Shown here: positions 5,412 through 63,488 of the stretch, piece by piece
Position numbering within the stretch: the stretch's first letter is position 1
Layout of the letters: every line of letters starts with the position of its first letter
Position numbers and translations under genes: made by a program
NCBI GenBank assembly: GCA_016185205.1
Contig: JACPOA010000064.1
Location: 1-64,000, forward strand
DNA: 64,000 nt
DNA from: Hyphomicrobiales bacterium
GTDB lineage: Bacteria > Pseudomonadota > Alphaproteobacteria > Rhizobiales > Xanthobacteraceae
Reading direction: 5' to 3'
Notes under the pieces: model-generated
Databases searched by the model: none
What the model was told of the DNA's origin: nothing
What the model saw: the letters and a program-made list of their open reading frames with translations, nothing else

Positions 5412-5436
5412 CCGTCCACTCGCAGTCGCCGATCCA

Positions 5437-5460: not shown

Positions 5461-5493
5461 ACTGTCTCAATTCTCCGCGTCGCAGGACATTTC

Positions 5494-9022: not shown

Positions 9023-9091
9023 ATGTCAAAGTCCCGGCATTCGCGGCACTCTCAGATGGGATACCTTTCGGTCCCAGCCCTGATCAGTCTC

Positions 9092-11199: not shown

Positions 11200-11380
11200 T
11201 TTTGCAATATAGATCAATGCACGCTGCGTGTTTTGCGAAATATGTGTCGGATTATGGCTGCTGCGGTGCTTGACACACTTTGTCACAAAAAACCCTGTTT
11301 CTGAAAAACTTGGGTGAACTCCGACCTCTCCAATGCGCACAAGCAACGGACCCCCCGCTGCACAGACATTGGAGTTTCAA

Positions 11381-29454: not shown

Positions 29455-29596
29455 GGATTGACCCCACGGTTATTCGGCTATTTCCCGCATTTTCAGGTGA
29501 ATTCTCCGACCCGGGAAAAAGTTCCATTGGGGTGGAACCCAATTGTCCCGTCGGATGTTGGGGGATGGGGTAACTGCGATCAGAAGACTTCATCCG

Positions 29597-35681: not shown

Positions 35682-35701
35682 TCGGCGCGCTAGCGGCCGA
35701 T
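35681..35701. terminator. Hairpin between convergent shc and LTxxQ genes
   Basis: ATCGGC-GCGCTAGCG-GCCGAT has a 6-bp stem that overlaps the end of shc and the stop codon of the opposing gene. It could act in both directions, but the stem is short and no clear T-run is present. Confidence 0.35.
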
Positions 35702-36817: not shown

Positions 36818-36948
36818 AGCCGACCTCCGGTCGTTGCCGCAGTCCGAATGGCAGACATCCCTGCTGCTCGATAACGAGCAATTGCGCCCGGCAGTTCCCT
36901 GCCGGGTCACGTTATGCGAGCCGGGCGTTTTTCGACCGGATTCCAGCT

Positions 36949-41085: not shown

Positions 41086-41327
41086 GCGTTGATACCCTTA
41101 GGCAATTAGCGTGAACGGAGCTTCCGTTAGCGGATCATCCGGTGTCCCTAACGGCGTCCCTTAATGATTCAGCCCCCGATGCGAACCTCATCCACATGCT
41201 GCGAAAGGTTCTCAATGATCGACAATAAAATTCGGCAGCAAAGGTTCCATTCGGAAAACGTTGAATTTGAAGCCGGACAGGTGGCGCCAATGACCGAAAT
41301 GAAATTGCTTTATCGGCGGGGGCCCTG

Positions 41328-47961: not shown

Positions 47962-48660
47962 TCAAACCTGTAGGAAGCGCTGGCGCACGCTCGGGTCGGC
48001 GGCAAGGTCCGCCGAACTGCCGGTCCACGCCACTTCGCCCTTTTCCAGCACGACATGGCGGTCGGCGAGTTTGACCAGCGCGTCGAGATGCTTGTCGACC
48101 AGCAGGATCGACTGGCCTTCGGCCTTGAGACGAGCCAGACACGCCCAAATCTCCGCGCGCAGGAGCGGCGCCAGGCCTTCGGTCGCCTCGTCGAGGATCA
48201 AGAGGCTCGGGTTTGTCATGAGCGCGCGGCCGATCGCCAGCATCTGCTGCTCGCCACCGGAGAGTTCGTCGCCCAGGTGACCGCGGCGCTCGGCCAGTTT
48301 CGGGAAAAACGCATAGACGCGCTCGAGCGTCCAGCGCGGGGCACCGAAGCGCGCTGCCGAGGTGGCGATCAAATTCTCCTCGACCGTCAGCGTCGCGAAG
48401 ACCTCGCGGCCTTCCGGCACGAGCCCAAGCCCGGCTTGCGCGATGCGGTAGGGCGGCAAGCCGAGTAGCGGGCAGCCGTCGAACGTCGCTGTGCCGCCGG
48501 TCGCCGGCAGCAATCCCATCAGCGTACGGATGGTCGTGGTCTTGCCCATGCCGTTGCGGCCGAGCAGCGTGACGACCTCGCCGGCCTGAATCGAGAAACT
48601 CACGCCGAACAGTACCGGCGAGGGTCCATAGGCCGCCTGCAATCGGTCGACCACCAGCAT
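47962..48660 (-). CDS. ABC transporter ATP-binding protein, LivF type (Liv operon 3)
   Basis: A 232-residue ATPase. Walker A is Gly-Arg-Asn-Gly-Met-Gly-Lys-Thr-Thr, the signature is Leu-Ser-Gly-Gly-Glu-Gln, and Walker B is Leu-Leu-Ile-Leu-Asp-Glu-Ala. The switch position is Val-Asp-Lys-His instead of the usual Val-Glu-Gln-Asn, an uncommon pair of changes near the catalytic loop. The start is ATG 48660, five bases after the LivG stop. It is the last intact gene of Liv operon 3. Confidence 0.9.
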   Translation of the reverse strand: MLVVDRLQAAYGPSPVLFGVSFSIQAGEVVTLLGRNGMGKTTTIRTLMGLLPATGGTATFDGCPLLGLPPYRIAQAGLGLVPEGREVFATLTVEENLIATSAARFGAPRWTLERVYAFFPKLAERRGHLGDELSGGEQQMLAIGRALMTNPSLLILDEATEGLAPLLRAEIWACLARLKAEGQSILLVDKHLDALVKLADRHVVLEKGEVAWTGSSADLAADPSVRQRFLQV

Positions 48661-48664
48661 CGCG

Positions 48665-49417
48665 TCACTCCATCTCTTCGCCGAGATAGGCCGCGACCAC
48701 TTGTGGATCGGCACGCACCGCGTCCGGCGTGCCGCTGGTGAGAATCTGGCCGTAGAGCAGGACCGAGATGCGATCGGCGAGCGCGAACACCGCCGTCATG
48801 TCGTGCTCGACCAGCAGAATGGGAAAGCGCCCCTTCAACCGCGACAGCACGGCAATCAGGCGGCGGCTTTCGTCGCGGCCGGCGCCGGCCATCGGCTCGT
48901 CGAGCAGCAGCAGCTTGGGCTGCATGGCCAGAGCGATGGCCAGTTCGAGCGCGCGTTTCTCGCCGTGCGAGAGATGGCCGGCGAGCGCGTCGGCGCGCTT
49001 GGTGAGGCCAACCTCGTCGAGTGCGGCCAGCGCCGGCGCATTGAGCGCCGACTCAGCCGCGGCGCATCCGAAGAAGCGGAAACTCGTGCCGATGCGCGCC
49101 TGCACGGCCAGTGCGACATTCTCGATCGCCGAAAAGCCTGGGAGAATCGAGGTGATCTGGAACGAGCGGGCCAGGCCGAGCGCGGCGCGCTCGGGCACCG
49201 ATAATGCAGTGACATCGCGGCTGGCAAACAGGACTCGGCCGGAATCGGGAGCGACCAGCCCGGAGATTTGATTGATCAGCGTGGTCTTGCCCGCGCCATT
49301 GGGGCCGATGACCGCATGCAGTTCGCCGGCCGCCACCTCGAAGTTCACGTTGCGGGTGACGGCAAGGCCGCCGAAATTCTTGTTCAGTCCTTCGAGCTGC
49401 AACACGGGCGCGGTCAT
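48665..49417 (-). CDS. ABC transporter ATP-binding protein, LivG type (Liv operon 3)
   Basis: A 250-residue ATPase. Walker A is Gly-Pro-Asn-Gly-Ala-Gly-Lys-Thr-Thr, the signature is Leu-Ser-His-Gly-Glu-Lys, Walker B is Leu-Leu-Leu-Leu-Asp-Glu-Pro-Met-Ala-Gly, and the switch is Val-Glu-His-Asp-Met. The start at 49417 overlaps the LivM stop by 4 bp (ATGA). The frame is open much further upstream only as chance coding inside livM. Confidence 0.92.
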   Translation of the reverse strand: MTAPVLQLEGLNKNFGGLAVTRNVNFEVAAGELHAVIGPNGAGKTTLINQISGLVAPDSGRVLFASRDVTALSVPERAALGLARSFQITSILPGFSAIENVALAVQARIGTSFRFFGCAAAESALNAPALAALDEVGLTKRADALAGHLSHGEKRALELAIALAMQPKLLLLDEPMAGAGRDESRRLIAVLSRLKGRFPILLVEHDMTAVFALADRISVLLYGQILTSGTPDAVRADPQVVAAYLGEEME

Positions 49418-50370
49418 GGCTGCGGCTCCGCGTGCTGCTTTCGCCACCACGCCGCCACTTGTCCCGCCAGACCGAGCAGGCCGCCGCGCGCCAGCAGCAC
49501 GACCAGCACGAGCAGGGGGCCGAAGATCATTTTCCAATTCTCGGTCAGGCCGGACAGATATTCGCCCAGCAGCGAGTAGGCCAAGGTGCCGATGATGGCG
49601 CCGTGCAGCGTGCCGAGGCCGCCCAGAATGATCATGATGATCAACTCGCCCGAGCGCTGCCACGACATGTAGGCCGGACTGACGAAATCGGTGGCATTGG
49701 CGAGCAGGAAGCCGGCCAGCCCGCCGAGTGCGCCGGAGATGGCGTAGGCGGCCAGCTGATAGCGGTAGATATCGAAGCCGAGCGTGGCCATGCGGGTCGC
49801 ATTCTCGCGCGCGCCGCGGAACACGCGGCCAAAGCGCGAGACCACCAGCGAACGGCAAAGACAATAACAACCGATCAGGCAGGCGAGCACGATGTAGTAG
49901 AACAGCCGTTCGTTTTTGAATGGCGACAGGCCAAACAGCGTGCTGCGCGCGTGCATGGTGAGGCCGTCATCTCCGCCATAGGGCGCCAGCGAACTCGCCA
50001 GGAAGAACGCCATCTGTCCGAACGCCAGCGTGATCATGATGAAATAGACGCCGCGCGTGCGCAGGCAGATCGTGCCGGTCAGATAGGCGAACGCGGTCGC
50101 CGCGATGAGCGCGACCGGTAGCGAGATCAACGCCTCGTTGATGCCGTGGCTGGCGAGGATGGCGACCGCATAGGCGCCGATGCCAATGAAGGCGGCATGG
50201 CCGAAGGAGACGAGCGCGCCATAGCCGACCAGCAGATCGAGACCGAGCGCGGCGATGGAAAAGATCATCACCCGCATGAACAGGTCGAGCAGATAGGTTT
50301 CCGTTCCGAAGGCCGCGGCCGCGGGCAGCAACGCGAATCCGAGGAAGATTGCGGTCGGCAGCCGCGTCAT
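49414..50370 (-). CDS. Branched-chain amino acid ABC transporter permease, LivM type (Liv operon 3)
   Basis: A 318-residue permease with about nine hydrophobic helices. The LivM motif is Gly-Tyr-Gly-Ala-Leu-Val-Ser-Phe-Gly-His-Ala-Ala-Phe-Ile-Gly-Ile-Gly. The coupling loop Gly-Gly-Leu-Gly-Thr-Leu-His-Gly-Ala lies near the C-terminus. It starts one base after the LivH stop codon ends, consistent with coupled translation. Confidence 0.92.
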   Translation of the reverse strand: MTRLPTAIFLGFALLPAAAAFGTETYLLDLFMRVMIFSIAALGLDLLVGYGALVSFGHAAFIGIGAYAVAILASHGINEALISLPVALIAATAFAYLTGTICLRTRGVYFIMITLAFGQMAFFLASSLAPYGGDDGLTMHARSTLFGLSPFKNERLFYYIVLACLIGCYCLCRSLVVSRFGRVFRGARENATRMATLGFDIYRYQLAAYAISGALGGLAGFLLANATDFVSPAYMSWQRSGELIIMIILGGLGTLHGAIIGTLAYSLLGEYLSGLTENWKMIFGPLLVLVVLLARGGLLGLAGQVAAWWRKQHAEPQP

Positions 50371-50371
50371 C

Positions 50372-51295
50372 TCACCGCCCCTTGGGCGGAAACAGGCCCG
50401 TCGGTCGGAAATAGAGCACCAGCGCCATCATCAGGTAGATCAGCATCGACGCGATCGCCGGTCCGACCGTGCGCGCCGGCGAGGGGGCCATGACCAGACG
50501 CAGGATATCGACCGAGAATGAGCGACCGAGCGTGTCGGCCAGCCCGATCAGCAGCGCGGCGATGAAGGCGCCGCGGATCGATCCGATGCCGCCGATCACG
50601 ATTACGACGAAGGCGAGAATGAGAATAGTGTCGCCCATGCCGGGTTCGACCGACAGGATCGGCGCGATCATGATGCCGGCAAAGCCCGCCAGCATGGTGC
50701 CGAATCCGAACACGATCATGAACAACCGGCGGATATCGACGCCGAGCGCCGAGACCATCGGCGCGTTATTGGCGCCGGCGCGCACCAGCATGCCAAGCCG
50801 CGTCCGGCTCACCAGCACATAGAGCAGCAGCGCGATAGCCAGCCCGGACGCGATGATGACAAGGCGCCAGATCGGATAAGTCAGGCCGGGCAGCAGGACG
50901 ATCGAGCCGGAAAAATATTCCGGGATCGGCAGGCTCAAGGGCGCCGCCCCCCATATATATTTCACGGCCTGGTTCAGGAACAGGATGATGCCGAAGGTCG
51001 CGATCACCTGGTCGAGGTGATCGCGCTCGTAGAGATGGCGGAAGACGACAAACTCAAGGAAGAGACCGAACGCGAGCGCGGCGAGCAGCGCGAATACCAG
51101 GGCCAGCAACGAGCTGCCGGTCATGCCGTAGAACATCACCGCGAGATAGGCGCCCAGCATGTACTGGACGCCATGCGCGAGGTTGATGAAATTCATCACC
51201 CCGAATACCAGCGTCAGCCCGGCCGCGATCAGGAACAGCAGCACGCCGAGCTGCAGCCCGTTCAGAATCTGGACGATGAGAAGCGACATCGACAT
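50372..51295 (-). CDS. Branched-chain amino acid ABC transporter permease, LivH type (Liv operon 3)
   Basis: A 307-residue permease. The LivH segment Asn-Phe-Ile-Asn-Leu-Ala-His-Gly-Val-Gln-Tyr-Met-Leu-Gly-Ala is present, with the loop Gly-Gly-Ile-Gly-Ser-Ile-Arg-Gly-Ala. The start codon is immediately downstream of a hairpin whose loop holds AAGG, so the folding state may influence initiation. Confidence 0.92.
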   Translation of the reverse strand: MSMSLLIVQILNGLQLGVLLFLIAAGLTLVFGVMNFINLAHGVQYMLGAYLAVMFYGMTGSSLLALVFALLAALAFGLFLEFVVFRHLYERDHLDQVIATFGIILFLNQAVKYIWGAAPLSLPIPEYFSGSIVLLPGLTYPIWRLVIIASGLAIALLLYVLVSRTRLGMLVRAGANNAPMVSALGVDIRRLFMIVFGFGTMLAGFAGIMIAPILSVEPGMGDTILILAFVVIVIGGIGSIRGAFIAALLIGLADTLGRSFSVDILRLVMAPSPARTVGPAIASMLIYLMMALVLYFRPTGLFPPKGR

Positions 51296-51335: not shown

Positions 51336-52508
51336 TCACTTCATCGGGCAGTCCTTGGCATGGATATCGGCGTCGTTGCTGAAGACCTTCTTGGCGATTT
51401 CGGTCTGGAACTTGCCGTCGGCGCGCTTGGCGACCTTGACCAGATAGAAGTCCTGGATCGGATAGTGGTTGGTGTTGAACTTGAAGCCGCCGCGCAGCGA
51501 GGTGAAGTTCGCCTTCTGCAACGCGGCCTGCAAAGCCTTCTTGTCGGCGGTCGAGCCTTTGGTCAGCTTGAGGGCGCCGTCGATCAAGAGCGCTGCATCA
51601 TAGGCCTGGAAGGCGTAGGTCGCCGGCACCGCGTTGAATTCCTTTTCATAGCCGGCGACGAATTTCTTGTTCTGCGGCGTGTCGAGGTTGGGCGCCCAGT
51701 TGGCGCCGGCGAAAAAGCCGAGTGCGGCATCCTGCTGCGCCGGCAGCGTCGACTCGTCGACCGTGAAGGCCGACAGGAACACCAGCTTGTCGGCCAAGCC
51801 CGCCTGGCGGAACTGCTTGACGAAGTTGATGCCCATGCCGCCCGGCAGGAACACATAGATGGCGTCGGGTTTGGCGGTGGCGATCTTCGACAGTTCGGCC
51901 GAATAGTCGAGCTGGCCGAGCGGCACGAACACCTCGTCGGCGATCTCGCCCTTGAAGAAACTCTTGAAGCCGGCCAGCGCGTCGCGCCCGGCCTGGTAGT
52001 TGGGGGCGATCAGGAAGACCTTCTTCAGGCCTGCGTCCTGCGCGTATTTGCCGGCCACGCCGAACGCCTGGTCGTTCTGGTACGACGTGACGAAGAAGTT
52101 CGCATTGCACTCCTTGCCGGCGAAATTGGAGGTGCCGGCATTCGGGCTGATCAGGACGATACCGGCGTCGGTCACCGGCTTGAAAATCGCCTGCAGCACG
52201 TTGGAAAAGACCGGGCCGACCACGAAGTCGACCTTGTCGCGCTCGAGCAGCGCCTTGACCTTGGTGACCGCGATGTCGGGCTTGAGTTCGTCGTCCTGCA
52301 CGATGATTTCGACTTCGCGGCCGCCGAGCTTGCCGCCGAGGTCTTTCACCGCCAGCTGGAAGCCGTTGCGCAACTGCTGGCCGAGCACGGCGGGCGGGCC
52401 GGAGAGCGTGGCGATGACGCCGATCTTGAGCTTGTCCTGGGCGTTGACGGTGCTCGTTACCAGCGCCAAGGCCGCGATCGCCGCGAGCGGCGTGAATACT
52501 CGGTACAT
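51336..52508 (-). CDS. Branched-chain amino acid-type ABC transporter substrate-binding protein (Liv operon 3)
   Basis: A 390-residue binding protein. Signal peptide about 1-23 (Val-Asn-Ala then Gln-Asp). The mature part begins Lys-Leu-Lys-Ile-Gly-Val-Ile-Ala-Thr-Leu-Ser-Gly-Pro-Pro-Ala. Cys in Lys-Glu-Cys-Asn-Ala and the last Cys in Lys-Asp-Cys-Pro-Met could pair. A very strong GGGAGGGGG site precedes the ATG and a 26-bp palindrome lies next to it. Family relatives bind aromatic acids or amino acids; the ligand is unassigned. It leads operon 3 and is divergent from trpB2. Confidence 0.9.
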   Translation of the reverse strand: MYRVFTPLAAIAALALVTSTVNAQDKLKIGVIATLSGPPAVLGQQLRNGFQLAVKDLGGKLGGREVEIIVQDDELKPDIAVTKVKALLERDKVDFVVGPVFSNVLQAIFKPVTDAGIVLISPNAGTSNFAGKECNANFFVTSYQNDQAFGVAGKYAQDAGLKKVFLIAPNYQAGRDALAGFKSFFKGEIADEVFVPLGQLDYSAELSKIATAKPDAIYVFLPGGMGINFVKQFRQAGLADKLVFLSAFTVDESTLPAQQDAALGFFAGANWAPNLDTPQNKKFVAGYEKEFNAVPATYAFQAYDAALLIDGALKLTKGSTADKKALQAALQKANFTSLRGGFKFNTNHYPIQDFYLVKVAKRADGKFQTEIAKKVFSNDADIHAKDCPMK

Positions 52509-52543: not shown

Positions 52544-52673
52544 TGATGTCATAGCAATCTTGCGCGCGTGCGGCAAACAGCCCGCTGCCGGCCGCTGAGT
52601 TCACAATGCCGGGCTGCTCATGTATGTTGCCGCCCGCTCGTTTTGTGTCGGGGTTAAATCAAGGGAGAGTTGC

Positions 52674-54038
52674 GTGAGTGACCAGGTCAAATTTGTCTTG
52701 GACGAAACCCATATTCCGAAGACTTGGTACAATTTGACGGCCGACCTGCCGAAGCCGCCGCCGCCCGTCCTGCATCCGGGCACCAAGCAGCCGGTCGGCC
52801 CCGCCGACCTCGAGCCGCTGTTTCCGATGGAATTGATCATGCAGGAGGTCACGGGCGAGCGTTACATCGACATTCCGCAACCGATCCGCGACGTCTACCG
52901 GATGTGGCGGCCCTCGCCCCTGATCCGCGCGCGCCGCCTCGAACAAAAGCTCGGCACGCCGGCCAAGATCTACTTCAAGTACGAAGGCGTGTCGCCGGCC
53001 GGCTCGCACAAGCCCAACACCGCGGTGGCGCAGGCTTGGTACAACCAGCAGGCGGGGATCAAGCGGCTCAGCACGGAAACCGGAGCGGGGCAGTGGGGGT
53101 CCTCGCTCGCCTTCGCCGGCAGCCTGTTCGGCATCGACGTGACGGTGTTCCAGGTGCGCGTGTCCTACGACCAGAAGCCCTACCGGCGCGCGCTGATGGA
53201 GACCTACGGCGCGCGTTGCATCGCGTCGCCCTCGAACGAGACCGACTCGGGTCGCGCCATCCTGAAGCAGCATCCGGACAGTCCCGGCTCGCTCGGCATC
53301 GCCATTTCCGAGGCGGTGGAGGTGGCGGCCAAGGACCCGGCGGTGAAGTATTCGCTCGGCTCCGTGCTCAATCACGTGCTGCTGCACCAGACCATCGTCG
53401 GGCAGGAAACGATCGAGCAGTTCGCGATGGCGGGCGACGATCCCGACATCATCATCGCTTGCGCCGGCGGCGGCTCGAACTTCGCCGGTCTTGCCTTCCC
53501 GTTCCTCGGGTTGCAGCTGCGCGGCGGACGCAAGCGCCGCATCATTGCGGTCGAGCCGGCGGCCTGCCCGTCGCTCACGCGCGGCAAGTATGCCTATGAT
53601 TTCGGCGACACGGCGCACCTGACGCCGCTGGTCAAGATGCACACGCTGGGCTCGACCTTCATCCCGCCCGGCTTCCATGCCGGCGGCTTGCGCTATCACG
53701 GCATGTCGCCGCTGGTCTCGCACGCCAAAGAGCTCGGCCTGATCGAGGCACGCGCCTACCATCAGACGACTTGTTTCGAAGCCGGCGTCGAGTTCGCGCG
53801 TTGCGAGGGCATCGTGCCGGCGCCGGAGGCCAATCACGCGGTGCGCTGCGCCATCGACGAGGCGCTGCGCTGCAAGAAGGAAGGCAAGGCGGAGACGATC
53901 GTCTTCAACCTCTCCGGCCACGGCCATTTCGACATGCAGGCCTACATCAACTACTTCGAAGGCAAACTCGTCGACCAGAACTACGACGAGAAGGAACTGG
54001 CCATGGCGCTCGCCGGTCTGCCGAGCGTGGCGGCGTAA
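52674..54038 (+). CDS. TrpB2-type tryptophan synthase beta-like PLP enzyme
   Basis: A 454-residue PLP enzyme of the TrpB2 class. The PLP lysine is Lys113 in Gly-Ser-His-Lys-Pro-Asn-Thr-Ala, and the catalytic Glu is Glu135 in Glu-Thr-Gly-Ala-Gly-Gln-Trp-Gly. The phosphate loop Gly-Gly-Gly-Ser-Asn and the C-terminal Ser-Gly-His-Gly-His-Phe-Asp are present. The TrpB2-specific long N-terminus (about 1-75) is there. TrpB2 enzymes act without TrpA and may use free indole or other nucleophiles. Start GTG 52674 with AAGGGAGAG upstream. No trp gene is near; the neighbours are importers and a nitrilase-fold gene, so a catabolic or salvage role is suggested. Confidence 0.9.
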
Positions 54039-54048: not shown

Positions 54049-55116
54049 ATGATCGAGCCCTACAACGCCGTCGGCCTGATCCCGAGTTTCTGGGGCATTC
54101 GCCGGCGCGAGGAGATCAAGCACAATATCGAGCATCTCAAGGGCCTGACCAAGGCGGCGTTCTGGCTGTCCAATCTCGACATTCCGGTGCGCCTGCTGGC
54201 GATCCCCGAGGGCGCGCTGATGGGCTTCAACGACGAAGTGCTGGATGTCGATCATGCCGACTATGCCCGCACCTGCTGTATCGATATTCCCGGTCCGGAG
54301 ACCGATGAGATCGGCAAGTTGGCGCGGCAATGGAACGTCTACATCATGGCGCAGGCCAAGGCGCGCCATCCCGATTGGAAGAACCGGTTTTTCAACATCG
54401 GCTTCATCGTCGATCCGGACGGCAAGATCATCCTGCAGCACTACAAGATCTCGGCGCTGCTGCCGGTCGAGCGCTCGGTGTCGCCGCATGATGTCTATGA
54501 CTGGTGGATCGAGAAATACGGCCGCACGCTGCAGGCGTTCTGGCCGGTGGTCGATACCAAGATCGGCCGGCTCGGCATCATGATGGCGATGGAGGGCAAT
54601 TATCCGGAGAACGGCCGCGGTCTGGCCATGAACGGCGCCGAAGTGGTGTACCGCGCCTCGATGCCGGCGCCGTTCACGGAAAACGACATCTTCGAGATAT
54701 CCAATCGCGCCCGCGCGCTTGAAAACAACATGTATGTCGTGGCGCCGAATATCGGCAGCTATCACCTCGATATCGATCATCCGGTCGGCATCGATGCCGG
54801 CGGCGGCCAGTCGATGATCGTCGATTATCGCGGCCAGCTGGTCGGCAAGCAGCGCGACACCAACGGCTCGACCTTCGTCGCCGGCGTCATCAATATCGAG
54901 GCCTTGCGCCATCACCGCGCGTCGTCGCAGGTCACCAACTGGATGAAGGATGTGCGGTCGGAACTGGCGCAAATCATCTACGAGAAACCGATCTATCCGA
55001 AGAACCGCTACATGAAGAAGCTGCCGCCGAAACACGCCGACTATAAGCGCGACGTGATCGACAAGCAGGTCGCCATGATGCAGAAGCGGAAGATCTGGAA
55101 GAAGCCGTCGGCCTGA
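54049..55116 (+). CDS. Nitrilase-superfamily protein lacking the catalytic cysteine
   Basis: A 355-residue carbon-nitrogen hydrolase fold most like aliphatic amidase/formamidase. Three members of the Glu-Lys-Glu-Cys site are present: Glu54 (Ile-Pro-Glu-Gly), Lys133 (His-Tyr-Lys-Ile) and Glu141 (Leu-Pro-Val-Glu). The nucleophile position, normally Cys in Ile-Cys-Asp-Asp-Gly-Asn-Tyr-Pro-Glu, is Ala180 in Met-Met-Ala-Met-Glu-Gly-Asn-Tyr-Pro-Glu. The DNA codon is GCG, so this is not a sequencing slip of one base from TGC or TGT. It is 10 bp after trpB2 and probably in the same operon. It may be a pseudoenzyme or a binding or regulatory subunit. Confidence 0.85.
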   Translation: MIEPYNAVGLIPSFWGIRRREEIKHNIEHLKGLTKAAFWLSNLDIPVRLLAIPEGALMGFNDEVLDVDHADYARTCCIDIPGPETDEIGKLARQWNVYIMAQAKARHPDWKNRFFNIGFIVDPDGKIILQHYKISALLPVERSVSPHDVYDWWIEKYGRTLQAFWPVVDTKIGRLGIMMAMEGNYPENGRGLAMNGAEVVYRASMPAPFTENDIFEISNRARALENNMYVVAPNIGSYHLDIDHPVGIDAGGGQSMIVDYRGQLVGKQRDTNGSTFVAGVINIEALRHHRASSQVTNWMKDVRSELAQIIYEKPIYPKNRYMKKLPPKHADYKRDVIDKQVAMMQKRKIWKKPSA

Positions 55117-55122: not shown

Positions 55123-55890
55123 TTACGCGCCGTTCTCCGCTGCCGCTCGCCGCGCATCGCGGCGGGCTTTGCGGGCATCGCCGCCCGCATTGGTGACGCC
55201 GACATAGGTTTCCAGCAGCGCCGGGTTGGCCTTGAGCTCGGCGCTGTCGCCCTCGTGCACGATGCTGCCACGTTCGAGGATGATAGCGCGGTCGGTGACG
55301 CCCAGGATCTTGTGCGCGTTCTGCTCCACCAGGATCACCGAGAGCTTTTCCTCGCGGATGATCTTGCGCAGGACGATCAGCAGTTCCTCGATGATGATCG
55401 GCGCCAGCCCTTCCAGTGGCTCGTCGAGCAACATGATGCGCGGATTGAGGATGAGCGCGCGGGCCACCGCCAGCATCTGCTGCTCGCCGCCGGACAGTTG
55501 ATGGCCGAGATTGCGGCGGCGTTCGGCCAGGCGCGGAAACACCTCATAGACCTTGTCGAGCGTCCACCTTCCCGGCCGCTCGATCGCGGTCATGTTTTCC
55601 TCGACCGTAAGTGAGCGGAAAATATTGCGTTCCTGCGGCACCCAGCCGATACCGGCATGCGCGCGCTGGTCCGGGCGCAGCCCGGTGATGTCGTGGCCGT
55701 CGAGACCGATGCTGCCGCCGATATGGGTGGTCACGCCGACAATCGTATTGACCAGCGTGGTCTTTCCCATGCCGTTGCGGCCAAGCAACGCCAGCGCCTG
55801 GCCTTCGGCGACCTTGAAGCTGACGTCCTTGAGTACGACCGCCTCGCCATAGCCGGCGGTCAAGCGTTCGACATTCAGGATGTCAGGCAT
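55123..55890 (-). CDS. ABC transporter ATP-binding protein, LivF type (Liv operon 4)
   Basis: A 255-residue ATPase. Walker A is Gly-Arg-Asn-Gly-Met-Gly-Lys-Thr-Thr, the signature is Leu-Ser-Gly-Gly-Glu-Gln, Walker B is Ile-Met-Leu-Leu-Asp-Glu-Pro, and the switch is Val-Glu-Gln-Asn. A basic alanine/arginine-rich tail of about 20 residues ends the protein. Start ATG 55890 overlaps livG by 8 bp. Convergent with the nitrilase-fold gene, 6 bp apart. Confidence 0.92.
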   Translation of the reverse strand: MPDILNVERLTAGYGEAVVLKDVSFKVAEGQALALLGRNGMGKTTLVNTIVGVTTHIGGSIGLDGHDITGLRPDQRAHAGIGWVPQERNIFRSLTVEENMTAIERPGRWTLDKVYEVFPRLAERRRNLGHQLSGGEQQMLAVARALILNPRIMLLDEPLEGLAPIIIEELLIVLRKIIREEKLSVILVEQNAHKILGVTDRAIILERGSIVHEGDSAELKANPALLETYVGVTNAGGDARKARRDARRAAAENGA

Positions 55891-56638
55891 CGACCGGCTC
55901 CTCGCCGAGATAGACGGCCTTGACTCTGGCGTCGCGGGCAACCTCTTCGGGAGTGCCCTCGACGAACAGAGCGCCATTGACCAGCACGGAAATGCGGTCG
56001 GCGAACGAGAACACGATGTCCATGTCGTGCTCGATCAGCAGCACGGTGACGTCGTCGGGCAGGGCGGCAACGGCGGACAGGATTTCGTGCCGCTCGTCTT
56101 CCGGCACGCCGGCCGCCGGCTCGTCGAGCAACAGCACGCGCGGCCGGCAGGCGATCGCGACCGCGATCTCCAGCAGCCGCTGCTTGCCATAGGGCAGCAC
56201 CGCGGTGCGTTCCTCGATGACATCGGTGAGGTGAAAACGCTCGAGGATTCCGACGGATTCGGACACCAGGTCCGGCCGGCTGCCGACGATGCGCCACCAG
56301 TCGAGGCCTTGGCCGCGCCGTTCGGAGACCGCCAGACCGATGGTCTCCAGCGGCGTCAGGTCGCCGAACAACTGGTTGATCTGGAAGGTGCGGACAATCC
56401 CGAGCCGCACCCGCTTGTGGGTGGGAACGTCGCTGATGTCCTCGCCGTCGAGCAGGATGCGTCCGCCGCTCGGCTTCATCACGCCGGTGAGCAGATTGAT
56501 CAAGGTGGTCTTGCCCGCGCCATTCGGTCCGATCAAGGCGTGGCGGGCGCCCTTTTCGATGCGCAACGAAACATCGTTGGTGGCGATGATGCCGGTGAAC
56601 CGCTTCGCCAGATTGATCGTTTCCAGCACCACGGTCAT
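55883..56638 (-). CDS. ABC transporter ATP-binding protein, LivG type (Liv operon 4)
   Basis: A 251-residue ATPase. Walker A is Gly-Pro-Asn-Gly-Ala-Gly-Lys-Thr-Thr, Walker B is Val-Leu-Leu-Leu-Asp-Glu-Pro-Ala-Ala-Gly, and the switch is Ile-Glu-His-Asp-Met. The signature region Leu-Pro-Tyr-Gly-Lys-Gln is degenerate, as in the LivG of operon 1. Start ATG 56638 overlaps the LivM stop (ATGA). Confidence 0.92.
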   Translation of the reverse strand: MTVVLETINLAKRFTGIIATNDVSLRIEKGARHALIGPNGAGKTTLINLLTGVMKPSGGRILLDGEDISDVPTHKRVRLGIVRTFQINQLFGDLTPLETIGLAVSERRGQGLDWWRIVGSRPDLVSESVGILERFHLTDVIEERTAVLPYGKQRLLEIAVAIACRPRVLLLDEPAAGVPEDERHEILSAVAALPDDVTVLLIEHDMDIVFSFADRISVLVNGALFVEGTPEEVARDARVKAVYLGEEPVDA

Positions 56639-57684
56639 GGCTTTTGACCTTCGTTCGACGCGGCCGCCGCGCGCCGCGCAGCGCGCCAATCTAGGCGCGC
56701 GGCAAGCCGGCGGAACGGCGTCGTCCACGTCGTGATGCGGTCGCGGCCGACCAGAACGATCACCACAAGCACGAGACCGATCCAGAACGGCCAATATTGC
56801 GGGGTGAGCGCCGACAGATAGTCCTGCATCACCTTGAAGATGATGGCGCCGATCATGCCGCCGTAGAGATAACCGGCGCCGCCGATGATCAGCACCAGCA
56901 GCAGGTCGGCCGAGCGATCGAACGAGAACATTTCAAGCGACGCGAACGCCGTGGTCTGCGCCAGCAGTGCGCCGGCGATACCGGCATAGCCGGCCGCGAT
57001 CGTGTAGATCGCAACCAGGCGGGCATCGACCGATATCCCGATCGCCGACGACCGCAGCGGATTGCCTTTCACCGACATCAACGACAGGCCGAAGGGCGAG
57101 TTCACCAGGCGGCGGGCAATCAGGAACAGGATGAACAGCACCGTCACGCTATAGGCATAGCCGGTGTGACCGAACATATCGAAACGGAACGTCCCGAATA
57201 GCGGCTGAATGATCGCGCCCTGCAGTCCGTCGGCGCCGCCGGTGAGCCAGCCGTAGCGGTTGGCCAATTCGCGCAGCAGCAGCGCCACCCCGAGCGTCAC
57301 CATCAGCCGCGTCAGGTCGGAGCCGCGCAGTACCAGGAAGCTGGTGACGAAACCGAGCGCCATTGCGCCGACACCGGCGATCAGCAAAGCCAGCACCGGC
57401 TCGTTGACGATTTCGTATTTGGCCAGCAGCGCGGCGATGTAGCCGCCGAAGCCGAAAAACGCGGCATGGCCAAGCGAGATGATGCCGGCGTAGCCGAGGA
57501 TCAGATCGAGCGACAGCGCGAACAGTGCGAGCCAGGCAATCTCGGTGAGGATGAGATGGCGCTCCGGCATCAGCCAGATCGCGGCAAACGCGACGATCCA
57601 GAACACGAATTCGAGCGGATGCCAGCGCGCGCGCGCGGACAGCCACTCGGTGGCGGCGAGGATGGTTGGGCGCGGGGGGATCAT
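56635..57684 (-). CDS. Branched-chain amino acid ABC transporter permease, LivM type (Liv operon 4)
   Basis: A 349-residue permease. The LivM motif is Gly-Tyr-Ala-Gly-Ile-Ile-Ser-Leu-Gly-His-Ala-Ala-Phe-Phe-Gly-Phe-Gly. The loop Gly-Gly-Ala-Gly-Tyr-Leu-Tyr-Gly-Gly-Met-Ile-Gly lies near the C-terminus, and a short Ala-rich tail follows. It starts 10 bp after livH and its stop overlaps the livG start. Confidence 0.92.
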   Translation of the reverse strand: MIPPRPTILAATEWLSARARWHPLEFVFWIVAFAAIWLMPERHLILTEIAWLALFALSLDLILGYAGIISLGHAAFFGFGGYIAALLAKYEIVNEPVLALLIAGVGAMALGFVTSFLVLRGSDLTRLMVTLGVALLLRELANRYGWLTGGADGLQGAIIQPLFGTFRFDMFGHTGYAYSVTVLFILFLIARRLVNSPFGLSLMSVKGNPLRSSAIGISVDARLVAIYTIAAGYAGIAGALLAQTTAFASLEMFSFDRSADLLLVLIIGGAGYLYGGMIGAIIFKVMQDYLSALTPQYWPFWIGLVLVVIVLVGRDRITTWTTPFRRLAARLDWRAARRAAAASNEGQKP

Positions 57685-57694
57685 GCTGGACGCC

Positions 57695-58555
57695 TCAGCG
57701 TGAAGAGGCGCGGGAGAACAGTCCCTGCGGCCGCCAGATCAGGACAACGATCATGATGGTATAGATGACGAAGGAACCGAGCGTGGGAACATAGTACTTG
57801 CCGGCGACGTCGCTGATGCCGAGCAAGAGCGAGGCAAGAAACGGGCCGGTGATGCTCGAGGTGCCGCCGACCGTCACCACGATCAGGAAGTAGATCATGA
57901 ATTTGAGCGGGAAGGTCGGGTCAAGACCCAGAATCTCGACGCCGAGCGCGCCGCCGAGGCCGGCGAGGCCCGACCCGAAGGCGAAGGTAAACGCGAATAT
58001 CCGATTAACGTTGATGCCGAGCCCGCGCGCGACGCGGCTGTCATCGACGGCGGCGCGCAGGCGGCTGCCAAAGCGCGTGCCGGCCAGGATGAATTGCAGT
58101 GCTATCGTCAGCAGCCCGCAAATGACGATGATCAGCAGCCGGTAGCGGCCGATGCCGACGCCGAAAAAGTTGAACTGGCCCTGCAAATAGTCCGGGACCT
58201 GCACGAAGACCTGGCTGGAGCCCATGACGTAGTCGAGCGCCGCCACCGACATGAAGACGAGGCCGATGGTGAACAACACCTGGTCGAGATGGGGCTTGCG
58301 GTAAACATGAACATAGAGCGTGCGCTCGAAGATAAATCCGATGACCGCGCTCGCCGCAAAGGCGAGCGGCAGGGAGGCGAAGAAGGGAAAGCCGAGCCAG
58401 TTGACCAGCACGACGGTGATGTAGCCGCCCGCCATGGCGAAGGAGCCATGCGCGAGATTGACGAAATTCATCAATCCGAGCGTCACCGCCAGTCCGGATG
58501 CGAGCACGAACAGCAGCATGCCGTAGGCAATTCCATCGAACAAAATGGTCAGCAT
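57695..58555 (-). CDS. Branched-chain amino acid ABC transporter permease, LivH type (Liv operon 4)
   Basis: A 286-residue permease. Motifs Asn-Phe-Val-Asn-Leu-Ala-His-Gly-Ser-Phe-Ala-Met-Ala-Gly-Gly and the loop Gly-Gly-Thr-Ser-Ser-Ile-Thr-Gly-Pro near the end are LivH-like. The gap to the binding-protein gene (about 130 bp) carries a strong hairpin. Confidence 0.92.
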   Translation of the reverse strand: MLTILFDGIAYGMLLFVLASGLAVTLGLMNFVNLAHGSFAMAGGYITVVLVNWLGFPFFASLPLAFAASAVIGFIFERTLYVHVYRKPHLDQVLFTIGLVFMSVAALDYVMGSSQVFVQVPDYLQGQFNFFGVGIGRYRLLIIVICGLLTIALQFILAGTRFGSRLRAAVDDSRVARGLGINVNRIFAFTFAFGSGLAGLGGALGVEILGLDPTFPLKFMIYFLIVVTVGGTSSITGPFLASLLLGISDVAGKYYVPTLGSFVIYTIMIVVLIWRPQGLFSRASSR

Positions 58556-58639
58556 GTCGGCATCGCGAAACGGCTCGTCCTCGGAGACAGGTGCTTGGGT
58601 TTAGAGTGCGGCGATCACCGACCGCCGCCGCTTAACAAA

Positions 58640-58668
58640 CGCGCGCGGCGACTCATCGCCGCCGCGCG
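58640..58668 (-). other. Intercistronic RNA hairpin, Liv operon 4
   Basis: GCGGCGA-CTCA-TCGCCGC is a perfect 7-bp stem with a 4-base loop. After one bulged C, five further G-C pairs extend it. It lies in the gap between the binding-protein gene (ends 58686) and livH (starts 58555). Same position as in the other three Liv operons. Confidence 0.65.
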
Positions 58669-58685
58669 CGGTAAGACTTATAGGT

Positions 58686-59864
58686 CTATTTCTTCGCCGC
58701 CGCCTTTACCGGATCCTTGACGGCTTCGAAGGTGGCAAACTCCACATTGTAGAGTTGGCCGTTCTTCTTCTCGACCTTACGCATGTAGATGTTCTGGATG
58801 ATATCGCGGGTCTCGGGATCGATCGAGATCGGCCCGCGCGGGCTTTCCCATGCCATCCCCTTCATCGCCGCGATCAGCGAGTCGCCGTCGGCCTTGCCGC
58901 CGGTCTTCTTGAGCGCCTCGTAGATGAGGTGCATGCCGTCATAGCCGCCAACCGACATGAAGTTCGGGCGGAAGTTGTTGGCTTTCTCGAAGGCGGCGAC
59001 ATAGGCCTTGTTCTTCGCGCTCGGGTGATCGGCCGAATGGAAGTGCGCGGTCACCGTTCCGATCGCGGCATCGCCCATGGTGGGAAGCAGATCGTCGTCG
59101 GTCACATCGCCCGGGCCGATCAGCTTGATGCCGGCCTTGTCGAGGCCGCGTTCGGCGAATTGCTTCATGAAGGTGCCGCCCTGGCCGGACGGGACGAAGA
59201 TGAAGATGGCGTCCGGCTTGGCGTCGGCGGCGCGTTGCAGGAACGGCGCGAAGTCCGGATTGGCGAGCGGAACCCTGATCGCCTCGATGACGTTACCGCC
59301 GGCTGCCTTGAAGCGTTCGGTGAACGACTTTTCCGCGTCGAAGCCCGGCGCATAGTCGGAGACGATGGTGACGACCTTCTTGATATTATTCTTCGCGGCC
59401 CAGTCGGCGACGATGACGCATGACTGCGGCACGGTGAAACTGGTGCGCACGATGTAGGGCGAACGCTCGGTGATGATCGAGGTGCCCGCCGCCATCACGA
59501 GCTGGACCACCTTGGCTTCGGTGGCGAGCGGGGCGACGACCAGCGCGGCCGGCGTGATTTCGAATCCGGCGATCACGCTGACCTTGTCGTTGACGATCAA
59601 TTCCTGCGACAGCCGCTTGGTGTTGTCGGGCACGCTGCCGGAATCGCGCAGGATGACCTGGATCTTCTTGCCGGCGACGGTGTCGCCGTGCTCCTTCATA
59701 TAAAGATCGACGGCGGCTTTGATCTGCTTGCCGGTCGAAGCCTGCTGCCCCGTCATGGCCACGACAAGGCCGATCTTGACGGTATCCTGCGCGAACGCGC
59801 CGCCCGCGGCGAACGTGCCGAGGGCGAGTGCGGCAATCGCGCCGGTCGCATATTTGAACAACAT
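58686..59864 (-). CDS. Branched-chain amino acid-type ABC transporter substrate-binding protein (Liv operon 4)
   Basis: A 392-residue binding protein. Signal peptide about 1-25 (Ala-Gly-Gly-Ala-Phe-Ala then Gln-Asp). The mature start is Thr-Val-Lys-Ile-Gly-Leu-Val-Val-Ala-Met-Thr-Gly-Gln-Gln. The ligand residues after the first strand differ from classical LivK, so the ligand may be an aromatic or aliphatic acid. It opens operon 4 and is divergent from the molybdoenzyme gene, 397 bp away. Confidence 0.9.
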   Translation of the reverse strand: MLFKYATGAIAALALGTFAAGGAFAQDTVKIGLVVAMTGQQASTGKQIKAAVDLYMKEHGDTVAGKKIQVILRDSGSVPDNTKRLSQELIVNDKVSVIAGFEITPAALVVAPLATEAKVVQLVMAAGTSIITERSPYIVRTSFTVPQSCVIVADWAAKNNIKKVVTIVSDYAPGFDAEKSFTERFKAAGGNVIEAIRVPLANPDFAPFLQRAADAKPDAIFIFVPSGQGGTFMKQFAERGLDKAGIKLIGPGDVTDDDLLPTMGDAAIGTVTAHFHSADHPSAKNKAYVAAFEKANNFRPNFMSVGGYDGMHLIYEALKKTGGKADGDSLIAAMKGMAWESPRGPISIDPETRDIIQNIYMRKVEKKNGQLYNVEFATFEAVKDPVKAAAKK

Positions 59865-60261
59865 TGGGTTTCCCTCCCGCTTAGCTGGTTTCGTTTTTTT
59901 GATTGCGCTGGCTTGTTTTAGCCGGCTGCAACCATGCGCTCATAATGGCCAGTACAATATCTTAGTAAGTCGGTTTGCTGGAGTCATCCGCGTTTATTGC
60001 AGCCGACGGCGCCGGCCTCGCGCATGCGAAGTCCGAGATGGCACTAGACCGCCTCCGGCGCAAATATTTCCTTGATCGAAGTCAAGCTAAAGTGGCGTGA
60101 AATGGGCCTATCTTGCACCGGTGGCGCTGCGGTGTCGGGCGGCCCACCGCCTGCGCCCAATAAGCGATCACGAAGCGCGAAATCTGAATAACCGTGGGCC
60201 CGCGCTATTTGTTACCATGGCTTGTAGCCTGCCCACTTCCGGCGCGACCGGGGCTTATCGC
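59865..60261. other. Divergent regulatory region between Liv operon 4 and the molybdoenzyme gene
   Basis: This 397-bp gap contains a perfect FNR/FixK-type box (60072-60085, listed separately), a T-run at 59894-59900 and a hairpin (GCTGGCT / AGCCGGC, 59907-59926) that would lie in the leader of the binding-protein mRNA. Upstream in-frame start codons for the molybdoenzyme exist (60097) but give no homology. Confidence 0.6.
60072..60085 (+). promoter_or_regulatory. FNR/FixK-type box (anaerobox)
   Basis: TTGATCGAAGTCAA has the exact TTGA-N6-TCAA arrangement bound by FNR/FixK/Dnr-type regulators. It lies 177 bp before the molybdoenzyme start and 207 bp before the binding-protein start. If the molybdoenzyme promoter is about 40 bp downstream of the box, low oxygen would activate the gene. 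Confidence 0.65.
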
Positions 60262-62430
60262 ATGAACATTCAGCAGCCTAGTTTGATATCCAACGATCTG
60301 GGCGCCACCGTGCTCAAGAGCGTCTGCCGCAGTTGCCATGGCGGATGCGGCGTATTGCTGCATGTCAAGGACGGGGTGCTGCTGAAAGTCGAGGGCGACC
60401 GCGATTCTCCGCTCAATCATGGCCGCCTGTGCCCGATTGGGACGGTGACCACCGATCTTGTATACCACCGGGACCGGCTGAAATATCCGCTGCGGCGCAA
60501 GGGCAAGCGCCAGTCCGGCGAGTGGCAGCGCATCTCCTGGGACGAGGCGCTCGACGAGATCGCCGAGCGGCTGCTGGCCATTCGCGACCAGTACGGGCCG
60601 GAGGCCATCGCGCTCGGCACCGGCACCGGCCGCCATCATATCCGCTGGGTATCGCGTTTCGGCAATGCACTCGGCACCCCCAATTGGTGCGAACCGGGTT
60701 TTGCCCAGTGCTTCCATCCGCGCGTGAACACCTCGATCCTCACCTTCGGCGACTTCCCGGTGAGCGATTACACCGGCGAGGTGCCGCCGGCTTGCATTCT
60801 GTTTTGGGGTCATAACCCGGTGCTATCGGGACCGGATGGCGAGACGCGTTTCAACGTGCACGAGGCGCTGGCGCACAATCCACGGACCATCGTGGTCGAT
60901 CCGCGCCGCACCGTGCTCGCCGAAAAAGCCGACCTCTGGCTGCAGATCAGGCCGGGCGCCGACGATGCGCTCGCGCTCGCCATGCTCAACGTCATCGTCG
61001 GCGAGAAACTGTACGACGAACCGTTCGTGACGCAGTGGACGCATGGCTTCGACGCGCTCGCCGAAAGCGTGCAGCAGCACACGCCCGAATGGGCGGAGCC
61101 GATCACCTGGGTTTCCGCCGAAAAAATTCGCGCCGCCGCGCGCCTGTTCGCTAACACCAAGCCAGCCTTGCTGGACTGGGGTTGCGCCATCGAACACACG
61201 CCGAAATGCATCCAGACTATTCGCGCCGTCTCGATGCTGCCGGCCCTCACCGGTAATATCGACGTGCCGGGCGGCTGGGTGTTCGGCATGCACGGGCTCG
61301 GCCGCTTCCCGAGCCTGATCGAAAACCTCACGCCGGAAGCCAACGCCAAGCGGCTCGGCGCCGACCGCTTCAAGCTGCTCGGCGGGGAGGGCGCCGACTT
61401 GCCGGCCGCCCATATCCCGACGCTGCTCAAGGCGATGCGCGAGGGCAAGCCCTATCCGGTCAAGGCCTTCCTGGTGTTCGGCAACAACACGCTCACGACC
61501 TATGCCAATACGTCCGATGTCTACGATGCGCTGATGAAGCTCGACTTCATGGTTTGCGCCGATTTGTTCATGACGCCGACCGCCGAGCTGGCCGACATCG
61601 TGCTGCCGGCGGCGGCCTGGCCCGAACTCGATCAACTGGTCGGCCTGCCGACGGTCGCCGCCAATGTCGTGCTCGCGCAGCAGAAGGCGGTGCAGATCGG
61701 CGAGTGCAAATCGGACGAGGAAATGTTCGTGGCGCTGGCGCGCCGCATGAAGCTTCCCTGTTGCACCGAGCCGGTCAAGGACGTGCTCGATGCAATGCTC
61801 GCCGCCGGCGGGCTCAACATAACTTTCGACGAACTCAAGCAGAAGGGATTCCACAAAGTCCCGTTCAAGTACCGTAAATATGAGAACGGCGGCTTCAAGA
61901 CGCCGACCGGCAAGATCGAGCTCTATTCGACGCGCTTCGAGCAGATGGGCTATGCGCCGTTGCCCTATTATGAAGAGCCGCCGGAAAGCCCGATCAGCAC
62001 GCCCGCGATCGCCGCCGACTATCCGCTGGTGCTGACGACCGGTGGAAGGATTTCGCACTTCTTCAATTCGGAGCACCGCCAGATCGACAGACTGCGCAAG
62101 GCGCATCGCGATCCGGTGGCGGAAATCCATCCCGAAACGGCGGCGCGCTTCGGCATCGTCAAAGGGGCCTGGATGTGGGTCGAGACCAAGCGCGGCCGCA
62201 TGCGGCAAAAGGCCAAACTCACCGACGGGATCGATGCGCGCGTCATCCATGTCGAGCACGGCTGGTGGTTTCCCGAGCAGGCGGCCCCGGACTATGGCGT
62301 CTGGACCTCGAACGCCAATCTGCTGACCGACAACCAGCCGCCCTATGACCCGGCGATGGGCACCTACCAGTTGCGGGCGCTGTTGTGTCGGGTTGGGCCG
62401 GCCGACGTGCCCACGGTCGACAAGAAATAA
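60262..62430 (+). CDS. Molybdopterin-dependent oxidoreductase, DMSO reductase family, single-subunit type
   Basis: A 722-residue enzyme. A [4Fe-4S] motif lies at the N-terminus (Cys22, Cys25, Cys29, Cys57), followed by the molybdopterin domains. Candidate Mo-ligand cysteines are Cys143 or Cys150. The cofactor-binding C-terminal domain includes Thr-Gly-Gly-Arg-Ile-Ser-His-Phe-Phe-Asn-Ser and a Trp-Trp-Phe-Pro-Glu segment. No Fe-S or membrane subunit and no twin-arginine signal are present, so it is probably cytoplasmic and may be a hydratase-like or transhydroxylase-like member. I use ATG 60262. The next gene is an amidohydrolase, 38 bp downstream. Confidence 0.9.
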   Translation: MNIQQPSLISNDLGATVLKSVCRSCHGGCGVLLHVKDGVLLKVEGDRDSPLNHGRLCPIGTVTTDLVYHRDRLKYPLRRKGKRQSGEWQRISWDEALDEIAERLLAIRDQYGPEAIALGTGTGRHHIRWVSRFGNALGTPNWCEPGFAQCFHPRVNTSILTFGDFPVSDYTGEVPPACILFWGHNPVLSGPDGETRFNVHEALAHNPRTIVVDPRRTVLAEKADLWLQIRPGADDALALAMLNVIVGEKLYDEPFVTQWTHGFDALAESVQQHTPEWAEPITWVSAEKIRAAARLFANTKPALLDWGCAIEHTPKCIQTIRAVSMLPALTGNIDVPGGWVFGMHGLGRFPSLIENLTPEANAKRLGADRFKLLGGEGADLPAAHIPTLLKAMREGKPYPVKAFLVFGNNTLTTYANTSDVYDALMKLDFMVCADLFMTPTAELADIVLPAAAWPELDQLVGLPTVAANVVLAQQKAVQIGECKSDEEMFVALARRMKLPCCTEPVKDVLDAMLAAGGLNITFDELKQKGFHKVPFKYRKYENGGFKTPTGKIELYSTRFEQMGYAPLPYYEEPPESPISTPAIAADYPLVLTTGGRISHFFNSEHRQIDRLRKAHRDPVAEIHPETAARFGIVKGAWMWVETKRGRMRQKAKLTDGIDARVIHVEHGWWFPEQAAPDYGVWTSNANLLTDNQPPYDPAMGTYQLRALLCRVGPADVPTVDKK

Positions 62431-62468
62431 GTCGGCGTGCCATAAACGCGCTCCCTGGAGGAACCCCA

Positions 62469-63488
62469 ATGCGTATCGATGCCTATACTCACTTTTTCCC
62501 GAAAAAATTCTTCGACAAGATGCTCGAGGTTGCCGGTCAATATAAGGACATGGGCAAGCGCGTGCGCTCGATCCCGCCGCTCTACGATCTCGACGCCCGC
62601 AAGAAGATCATCGATACCCATAAGGACTACGCGCAGATCATCGCCTATCCGCAGCCACCGATTGAAAAAATTGCGAAAAGCCCGCAGGAGATCGACGAGT
62701 TCCTCCGCATCATCAATGACGGTCTCGCGGAGCTGTGCGCCAAGGAAAGTGCGCACTTCCCCGGCTGGATCGCGCAGGTCTCGCTCGACGCGGCCGACGC
62801 CGGCGTCGCCGAGGCGGAGCGCGCCATCAAGATGGGTGCGCTCGGCGTGCAGATCTATACCAACGTCAACGGCAAGCCGATCGACCGGCCGCAATACCTG
62901 CCGTTCTGGAAAAAGATGAACGAGCTCGGCAAGCCGATCTGGCTGCATCCGGCGCGCGGCGCCGAGATGGCGGACTATATCGACGAGAAGAAATCGCTGT
63001 ACGAAATCTGGTGGACCTTCGGCTGGTCCTACGAGACGGCGACCGCGATGGCGCGGCTGGTGTTCTCCAAGATCATGGACAACCACCCCAACCTGAGGAT
63101 CATCACGCATCATTTCGGCGGCATCGTGCCGATGCTGGAAGGCCGCATCGGGCCGGGCTGGGACGTGCTCGGTTCGCGCACCAGCGACGAGGATTACGTG
63201 GCGCTGCGCAAGAGCTTGAAGAAGCGCCCGCTCGACTACTTCAAGCAGGATTTCTATGCCGATACCGCGGTGTTCGGAGGCAAGCCGGCGACCAAATGCG
63301 GCCTGGAGTTCTATCCGACCGAAAAGATATTGTTCGCGTCCGACTGCCCGTTCGATCCGGAAAACGGCGCCATGTATCCGCGCGAGACCTTGCGGATCCT
63401 CGAAGAGCTCAATCTCGACAAGGCGACCAGCGACAAGATCTTCTACCAGAATCTGGAAGCCGTCACCGGCCGCAAGCTGGTGAAGTAA
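62469..63488 (+). CDS. Amidohydrolase-2 family protein (ACMSD/decarboxylase-like)
   Basis: A 339-residue TIM-barrel metal enzyme. The first metal motif reads Tyr6-Thr-His8 instead of His-x-His. Further ligands are His160 (Ile-Trp-Leu-His-Pro), His214 (Ile-Thr-His-His-Phe-Gly-Gly) and Asp292 (Ala-Ser-Asp-Cys-Pro-Phe-Asp). Family members decarboxylate or hydrolyse aromatic acids and lactones (ACMSD, gamma-resorcylate decarboxylase, 4-oxalomesaconate hydratase). GGAGGA lies before the ATG. Co-transcription with the molybdoenzyme is likely, suggesting an aromatic or ring-cleavage substrate. Confidence 0.88.
   Translation: MRIDAYTHFFPKKFFDKMLEVAGQYKDMGKRVRSIPPLYDLDARKKIIDTHKDYAQIIAYPQPPIEKIAKSPQEIDEFLRIINDGLAELCAKESAHFPGWIAQVSLDAADAGVAEAERAIKMGALGVQIYTNVNGKPIDRPQYLPFWKKMNELGKPIWLHPARGAEMADYIDEKKSLYEIWWTFGWSYETATAMARLVFSKIMDNHPNLRIITHHFGGIVPMLEGRIGPGWDVLGSRTSDEDYVALRKSLKKRPLDYFKQDFYADTAVFGGKPATKCGLEFYPTEKILFASDCPFDPENGAMYPRETLRILEELNLDKATSDKIFYQNLEAVTGRKLVK

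Follow-up and report, generated by a model that had tools for sequence, protein, structure and literature searches.

A deep and conserved branch of the nitrilase fold with alanine in place of the nucleophilic cysteine, frequently encoded near TrpB2

The window analysed here, a stretch of 64,000 nucleotides from a Hyphomicrobiales bacterium, carries on its plus strand an intact open reading frame with an ATG start (54049..55116) that encodes a Cys-less protein of the nitrilase/amidase fold, 355 amino acids in length. At the position of the superfamily's catalytic cysteine this protein has Ala180, encoded by GCG (54586..54588, plus strand) in the context GIMMAMEGNYPE. The codons of the other catalytic positions were read from the same strand as GAG for Glu54, the general-base position (54208..54210), AAG for Lys133 (54445..54447), and GAG for Glu141 (54469..54471), in agreement with the first-pass annotation, which had described these three residues as kept and the cysteine as replaced by Ala180. 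The annotation had also placed the intact gene 10 bp behind trpB2, and the trpB2 frame indeed ends at 54038, with the gene starting at 54049. The product of trpB2 (52620..54038, plus strand) is a TrpB-like PLP enzyme of 472 amino acids, identified by its family profile scores (744.8 bits for NF009057, cut-off 366, and 628.5 bits for TIGR01415, cut-off 518.85), with 6hul_B as its best solved relative (4.8e-137). It contains the motifs SHK and ETGAGQWG, which we take to be those of the Schiff-base lysine and the catalytic glutamate. An ordinary trpB (610 bits) is present in the same genome on a separate contig (C55), so that TrpB2 need not be the biosynthetic enzyme.

The gene pair is flanked by two importers. 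Divergent from trpB2 lies a gene for a substrate-binding protein of the Pfam family Peripla_BP_6 (51336..52508, minus strand), a relative of which, at 73-82% identity, was found in seven proteobacterial loci. The rest of this first LIV-type ABC importer (47962..51295, minus strand), named by resemblance, consists of permeases (50372-51295 and 49414-50370) and ATPases (between 47962 and 49870). A second LIV-type ABC importer (55123..59864, minus strand) is convergent with the pair; its binding protein (58686-59864, minus strand) also belongs to Peripla_BP_6, and its other genes were named by resemblance. Beyond it (60097-63485) a molybdopterin oxidoreductase, which is formate-dehydrogenase-like and scores under every NCBIfam cut-off shown, is followed by an Amidohydro_2 protein. 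A separate region of the window (29543-43919) encodes a glycosyltransferase 2, a squalene/phytoene synthase, a squalene-hopene cyclase, a radical SAM protein with DUF3463, and an MMPL protein, and is presumably a hopanoid-type cluster.

The window protein matched the Pfam domain CN_hydrolase (PF00795) with 86 bits at a cut-off of 23.2, and its best solved relatives by sequence are the formamidase AmiF (PDB 2dyu/2e2k) and the aliphatic amidase AmiE (2uxy). In the profile alignment with formamidase, the nucleophile, presumably numbered Cys166, falls under Ala180, and formamidase Lys133 and Glu141 fall under Lys133 and Glu141 of the window protein; the domain score and this alignment bear out the nitrilase fold that had been proposed. 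An AlphaFold2 model built from 45 aligned rows reached a mean pLDDT of 90.2 and a pTM of 0.91, and places Ala180 as the first helix residue right after the strand 173-178, i.e., at the nucleophile elbow; model confidence is lowest at residues 131-150 around Lys133 and Glu141 (block means of 70 and 66). The GNYPE motif after the nucleophile position is shared with aliphatic amidase. Likeness to the two amidases does not extend to their equivalog families, since the window protein obtained 52.8 bits against 406 for formamidase AmiF (NF009803) and 44.3 bits against 427 for aliphatic amidase AmiE (NF009802). The identity of the catalytic residues in the nitrilase family is established knowledge, and of these the glutamate, the lysine and the second glutamate are present in the window protein and in 89/89 members of the Ala clade described below, all of which have Ala at the elbow. 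Because the nucleophilic cysteine is absent, the protein counts as homologous in fold only and is classed as neither a nitrilase nor an amidase.

Fixation of the alanine was assessed among relatives. A genome scan yielded 294 stretches encoding a relative, and the best 80 of these 294 loci, at approximately 64% identity or more, all have MMA[MN]E at the site. Subsequently, 103 homologues were compared, each covering at least some 280 query residues and taken from the scan loci, plasmid records and more distant genome hits; 23 mostly redundant loci (L001, L002, L006, L007, L009-L024, and L120-L122) were left out, and those of them that reach the site also have Ala. The nucleophile column contains 89 Ala and 14 Cys; haloarchaeal proteins of 48-53% identity and a Flammeovirga protein of 40% identity likewise carry Ala. 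Glu54 and Lys133 are conserved in 103/103 homologues, and Glu141 in 89/89 members of the Ala clade and 100/103 overall. Two serines were compared as conceivable alternative nucleophiles: Ser274 is present in 88/89 of the Ala clade and in 0/14 Cys rows, and Ser143 in 89/89 and in 9/14 Cys relatives. In comparison with formamidase, the Trp137 position is Leu in 89/89 of the Ala clade (Leu137 in the window protein), and Gly replaces the Tyr that follows the base Glu in 88/89. Both formamidase residues presumably lie in the pocket, and with these two bulky side chains gone a larger ligand might fit. An insertion after Lys133 was considered as a mark of the Ala clade and discarded, as the spacing between Lys133 and Glu141 is the same in the Ala clade and in formamidase, and it is 11 of the 14 Cys rows that are without one residue there.

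A maximum-likelihood tree was calculated from 42 rows, i.e., 28 Ala proteins (thinned at 88% identity) and all 14 Cys proteins, with the trait column left out. The Ala proteins form one side of a single branch with a support of 100/97, such that one change suffices, and this side includes Proteobacteria, Rokubacteria, Acidobacteria, Chloroflexi, Actinobacteria, and haloarchaea. The tree gives no root, the long branches of L008 and L116 are of unsure placement, and a program warning points to further long branches that come together. A single change from Cys to Ala in an amidase lineage, on the formamidase/aliphatic-amidase side of the nitrilase fold, appears to have founded the Ala proteins, the direction in this unrooted tree being taken from the cysteine as the superfamily norm. 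The window gene is under purifying selection, with pN/pS values of 0.06-0.38 against seven relatives (dS up to 1.17). The first-pass annotation had asked whether the Ala is fixed in a clade, and had reckoned with the case in which close homologues have Cys and only this strain differs. The former proved correct and the latter did not occur; with 89/89 Ala and purifying selection, a strain-specific mutation, a sequencing error and a pseudogene were all ruled out. Since several bacterial phyla and haloarchaea have the loss in common, a conserved family seems a better description than a broken gene.

The gene is rare among the genomes searched. Counting those with a match at an E-value of 1e-40 or better, with the window's own genome included, 4/43 matched in the genus, 20/391 in the family, 4/297 in the order, and 6/289 in the class, which became 3, 19, 1, and 3, respectively, after Cys homologues had been taken out (the 19 in the family include the fragment of G546, which stops short of the site). 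Relatives of 64% identity or more are scattered thinly over distant phyla, a pattern suggestive of horizontal transfer. Some taxon labels of metagenome-assembled genomes (MAGs) may be wrong. Two contigs of a single MAG labelled Flavobacteriaceae (L085 and L091), for example, each carry a Cys-less gene in a gene order that matches the Porticoccaceae loci, and this MAG is probably mis-binned.

TrpB2 was encoded within the fetched locus in 40 of the 80 loci, in all 40 on the same strand as the Ala gene; of the other 40 loci, 12 lack it despite full flanks, and in 28 the flanks are short. Measured between stop-to-stop frames, the distance was about 200 bp or less in 15 loci, at most 1.6 kb in 7, and larger (up to 6.4 kb) in 18. 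The two motifs are present in 38/38 TrpB2 proteins compared from Ala loci. TrpB2 lies upstream of the Ala gene in most Xanthobacteraceae-type loci and downstream in Rhodoplanes and marine alphaproteobacteria; in the Porticoccaceae loci it stands behind an aldehyde dehydrogenase, and in several Rokubacteria before sulfonate-type (Ssu) importer genes. This occurrence on either side, with different genes in between, suggests that the link between the two genes arose more than once. In the Rokubacterial locus L097, opposite-strand URO-D and luciferase-like genes are located between TrpB2 and the Ala gene, which rules out a common operon in this locus; other Rokubacterial loci look similar in their gene calls. 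Two Rokubacterial loci (L054, 2883-4571, and L101, 62-1729) contain a single open reading frame with 2Fe-2S ferredoxin and guanylate cyclase domains, which in L054 follows TrpB2. Pairwise identities of the Ala proteins and of TrpB2 correlate with a Spearman coefficient of 0.61 (703 pairs from 38 of the 40 loci), to which shared species history contributes.

A search of 30 genomes for TrpB2 found one over the cut-off in 14, of which three have it in the locus itself (L025, L034, which is from the cultivated Rhodoplanes elegans DSM 11907, and L066). Among the 27 genomes that do not, 11 encode TrpB2 elsewhere; in the other 16, which include all ten acidobacterial genomes tested, none exceeded the cut-off, genome completeness not being given. 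In the MAG of L085, the TrpB2 gene found elsewhere adjoins the second Ala gene (L091). The first-pass annotation had asked whether the clade always stands next to trpB2, and this is not supported: the neighbourhood recurs in half of the 80 loci, and 16 of 27 genomes have no TrpB2 over the cut-off, by which an obligate TrpB2 subunit is also rejected.

The further neighbours of the Ala gene are suggestive of the catabolism of imported nitrogenous, perhaps indole-type, compounds, although the indole theme is weak and derives from few loci. Genes known from indole-to-anthranilate catabolism (indole monooxygenase, isatin hydrolase, and 2-aminobenzoyl-CoA monooxygenase) have likenesses near the Ala gene in some loci. 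A flavoprotein resembling styrene/indole monooxygenase is encoded in 11/12 acidobacterial loci and a TonB-type receptor in 12/12. The flavoprotein of L063 has as its best solved relative 7z4x (E 3.1e-175), presumably an indole monooxygenase, and a further match, 9j0h, is named styrene/indole monooxygenase. On a Tsukamurella plasmid (L110; Ala protein at 72% identity) a relative of isatin hydrolase (5nmp, E 1.4e-75) is encoded directly upstream, and nearby are subunits of an indolepyruvate oxidoreductase and a protein annotated as salicylyl-CoA 5-hydroxylase/oxidoreductase, a type which we take to be 2-aminobenzoyl-CoA monooxygenase/reductase (ABMR). An ABMR-type protein (1282.5 bits, cut-off 1078) also follows the Ala gene in L025, where a benzoate-CoA ligase (380.7 bits, cut-off 375.25) and a Rid-like protein under its cut-off are encoded farther on. 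Near the Ala gene, ABMR-type proteins occur in 3 of the 75 loci with near genes compared (L025, L066, and the Tsukamurella plasmid), six loci in which the gene caller lost the Ala gene having been dropped. The window genome has an ABMR-type gene on another contig; within the home family ABMR is not enriched with the Ala gene, as it is present in 11/19 Ala-positive genomes, a set without the Cys-bearing G313 and including the G546 fragment that ends short of the site, versus 222/372 of the rest. In haloarchaea, L111 and L113 have none of the neighbours described here, and LIV-type permeases lie approximately 6.5 kb or more upstream in L112. In the unannotated record L114 the Ala gene is directly followed by LIV-like importer genes, and a TrpB relative of only 30% identity is encoded on the opposite strand. 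An actinobacterial MAG (L062, 2551-3810) contains a gene resembling the alpha subunit of haem-dependent oxidative N-demethylase some 40 bp behind the Cys-less gene.

Cysteine-bearing relatives accompany the Ala gene in a few loci. Those of L041 (10285-11439) and L046 (2377-3501), at 49% identity to the window protein, are the nearest Cys rows on the tree, where they group with the Ala clade at a support of 92/84 (not starred); they keep the cysteine (GCLVCMEGSYPE and GCVICMEGSFPE, respectively) and differ by one residue fewer between Lys133 and Glu141. L063 has a Cys relative at 42% identity. In L041, a locus of a gammaproteobacterial MAG, the Ala gene and the Cys paralogue are separated by the gene for a haem aldoxime dehydratase (PF13816), and a molybdenum hydroxylase is encoded nearby. 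The region (3708-11442) also has a TonB receptor gene and contains three nitrilase-fold genes in all (nitrilase-like, Cys-less, and Cys-bearing).

Taken together, the Ala gene does not appear to be dead, and rather than being obligately a subunit of TrpB2 its product seems to belong to small catabolic modules, whose substrates would be imported nitrogenous compounds, possibly indole-type aromatics. The reading to which we lean, at a probability just short of even, is that it may be a Cys-independent enzyme using its Glu-Lys-Glu pocket. The nitrilase-family route runs via a thioester on the cysteine and is closed by loss of the thiol, without which this intermediate cannot form. In the mechanism envisaged for the Cys-independent enzyme, Glu54 would act as general base on water or on a substrate proton, with Lys133 polarising a carbonyl (or nitrile) and Glu141 as the proton shuttle. 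An activated substrate would thereby be hydrolysed or hydrated non-covalently, or undergo proton transfer, and the pocket for it is perhaps roomier than that of formamidase. That each of the three residues is invariant in 89/89 Ala proteins, from haloarchaea to Proteobacteria, argues that they are used. The single change, the purifying selection, the confident fold with Ala180 at the elbow, the formamidase-like spacing between Lys133 and Glu141, the metabolic neighbours (TrpB2, importers, and oxidoreductases), and the occurrence of Ala members in genomes without TrpB2 over the cut-off are also in favour of a Cys-free enzyme. On the other hand, a nitrilase fold deprived of its thiol is expected not to turn over substrate, the model is least sure around two of the three residues, the indole theme comes from few loci, ABMR is not enriched, and a ligand binder would likewise require the retained Glu-Lys-Glu set. 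The last point leads to a reading that we hold possible but less probable, in which the protein is a true pseudoenzyme. Its retained pocket would trap an amide-like or aromatic ligand, and its part in the neighbouring pathway would be that of a sensor, a carrier or a modulator. A nucleophile missing from an otherwise complete set of catalytic residues fits such a role, formamidase-type nucleophile mutants hold substrate, and the formamidase structure 2e2k, in which Ser takes the place of the cysteine, indicates that the fold can do without its thiol. However, no constant partner was found, given the 16 of 27 genomes mentioned above, and this favours a stand-alone function. Moreover, the Pfam scan of two Ala members (the window protein and that of L040) returned CN_hydrolase alone and no signalling domain, and an invariant general base seems more than simple binding needs, for which reason chemistry is favoured over mere binding.

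A role of the Ala protein as structural or allosteric partner of TrpB2, standing in for TrpA, is improbable. It would accord with the 10-bp spacing in the window, with the shared strand in all 40 loci that have TrpB2, with a link that possibly arose more than once, with the correlated identities, and with the separate trpB, given which TrpB2 need not be the biosynthetic enzyme. Against it stand the 27 genomes without TrpB2 in the locus, 11 of which have it elsewhere and 16 not at all over the cut-off, as well as the intervening opposite-strand genes of L097 and the share of species history in the correlation. We give very little credence to a hetero-oligomer in which the Ala protein would be the inactive subunit and a Cys paralogue the active one, an arrangement to which L041 and L046, with the 49% Cys relative within a few kb, and L063 would lend themselves; these are only 3 of 80 loci, too few for a general rule, and the best other hit to the protein in the window genome is 20.2 bits. 

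A more specific version of the favoured reading, also somewhat less than even in probability, is that the phylum-spanning clade could have abandoned covalent Cys chemistry and become a non-covalent Glu-Lys-Glu enzyme (a hydratase, a lactam or ester hydrolase, or a lyase) of N-heteroaromatic catabolism, perhaps indole-type, that is linked to TrpB2.

A literature search, thin on subscription papers, found no description of a Cys-less nitrilase-fold protein or pseudoenzyme, or of a link between TrpB2 and a nitrilase. The word nitrilase is absent from the main text of each of five papers that deal with the degradation of indole or indole-acetate (PMC11630574, PMC9613470, PMC13101512, PMC9871250, and PMC6221969), and a Cys-less nitrilase-fold protein is not named in the matched passages of these papers or of PMC8955678. 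Several Ala members in plasmid records are named "nitrilase-related carbon-nitrogen hydrolase", a name which suggests a hydrolysis that they cannot perform by the known route. We know of no earlier thiol-free catalyst in the nitrilase superfamily, and a Cys-free Glu-Lys-Glu enzyme, if true, would be the first as far as known.

The Ala proteins constitute a real, deep and conserved Cys-less branch of the nitrilase fold, which falls outside the nitrilases and amidases on the very residue that defines their chemistry. In this branch the nucleophile appears to have been lost cleanly, once and at great depth, and the other site residues have stayed fixed, which makes it a natural experiment on the abilities of a thiol-free nitrilase pocket. 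Finally, as TrpB2 is the most frequent labelled neighbour of the Ala gene, the branch provides a handle on TrpB2 outside tryptophan synthesis.
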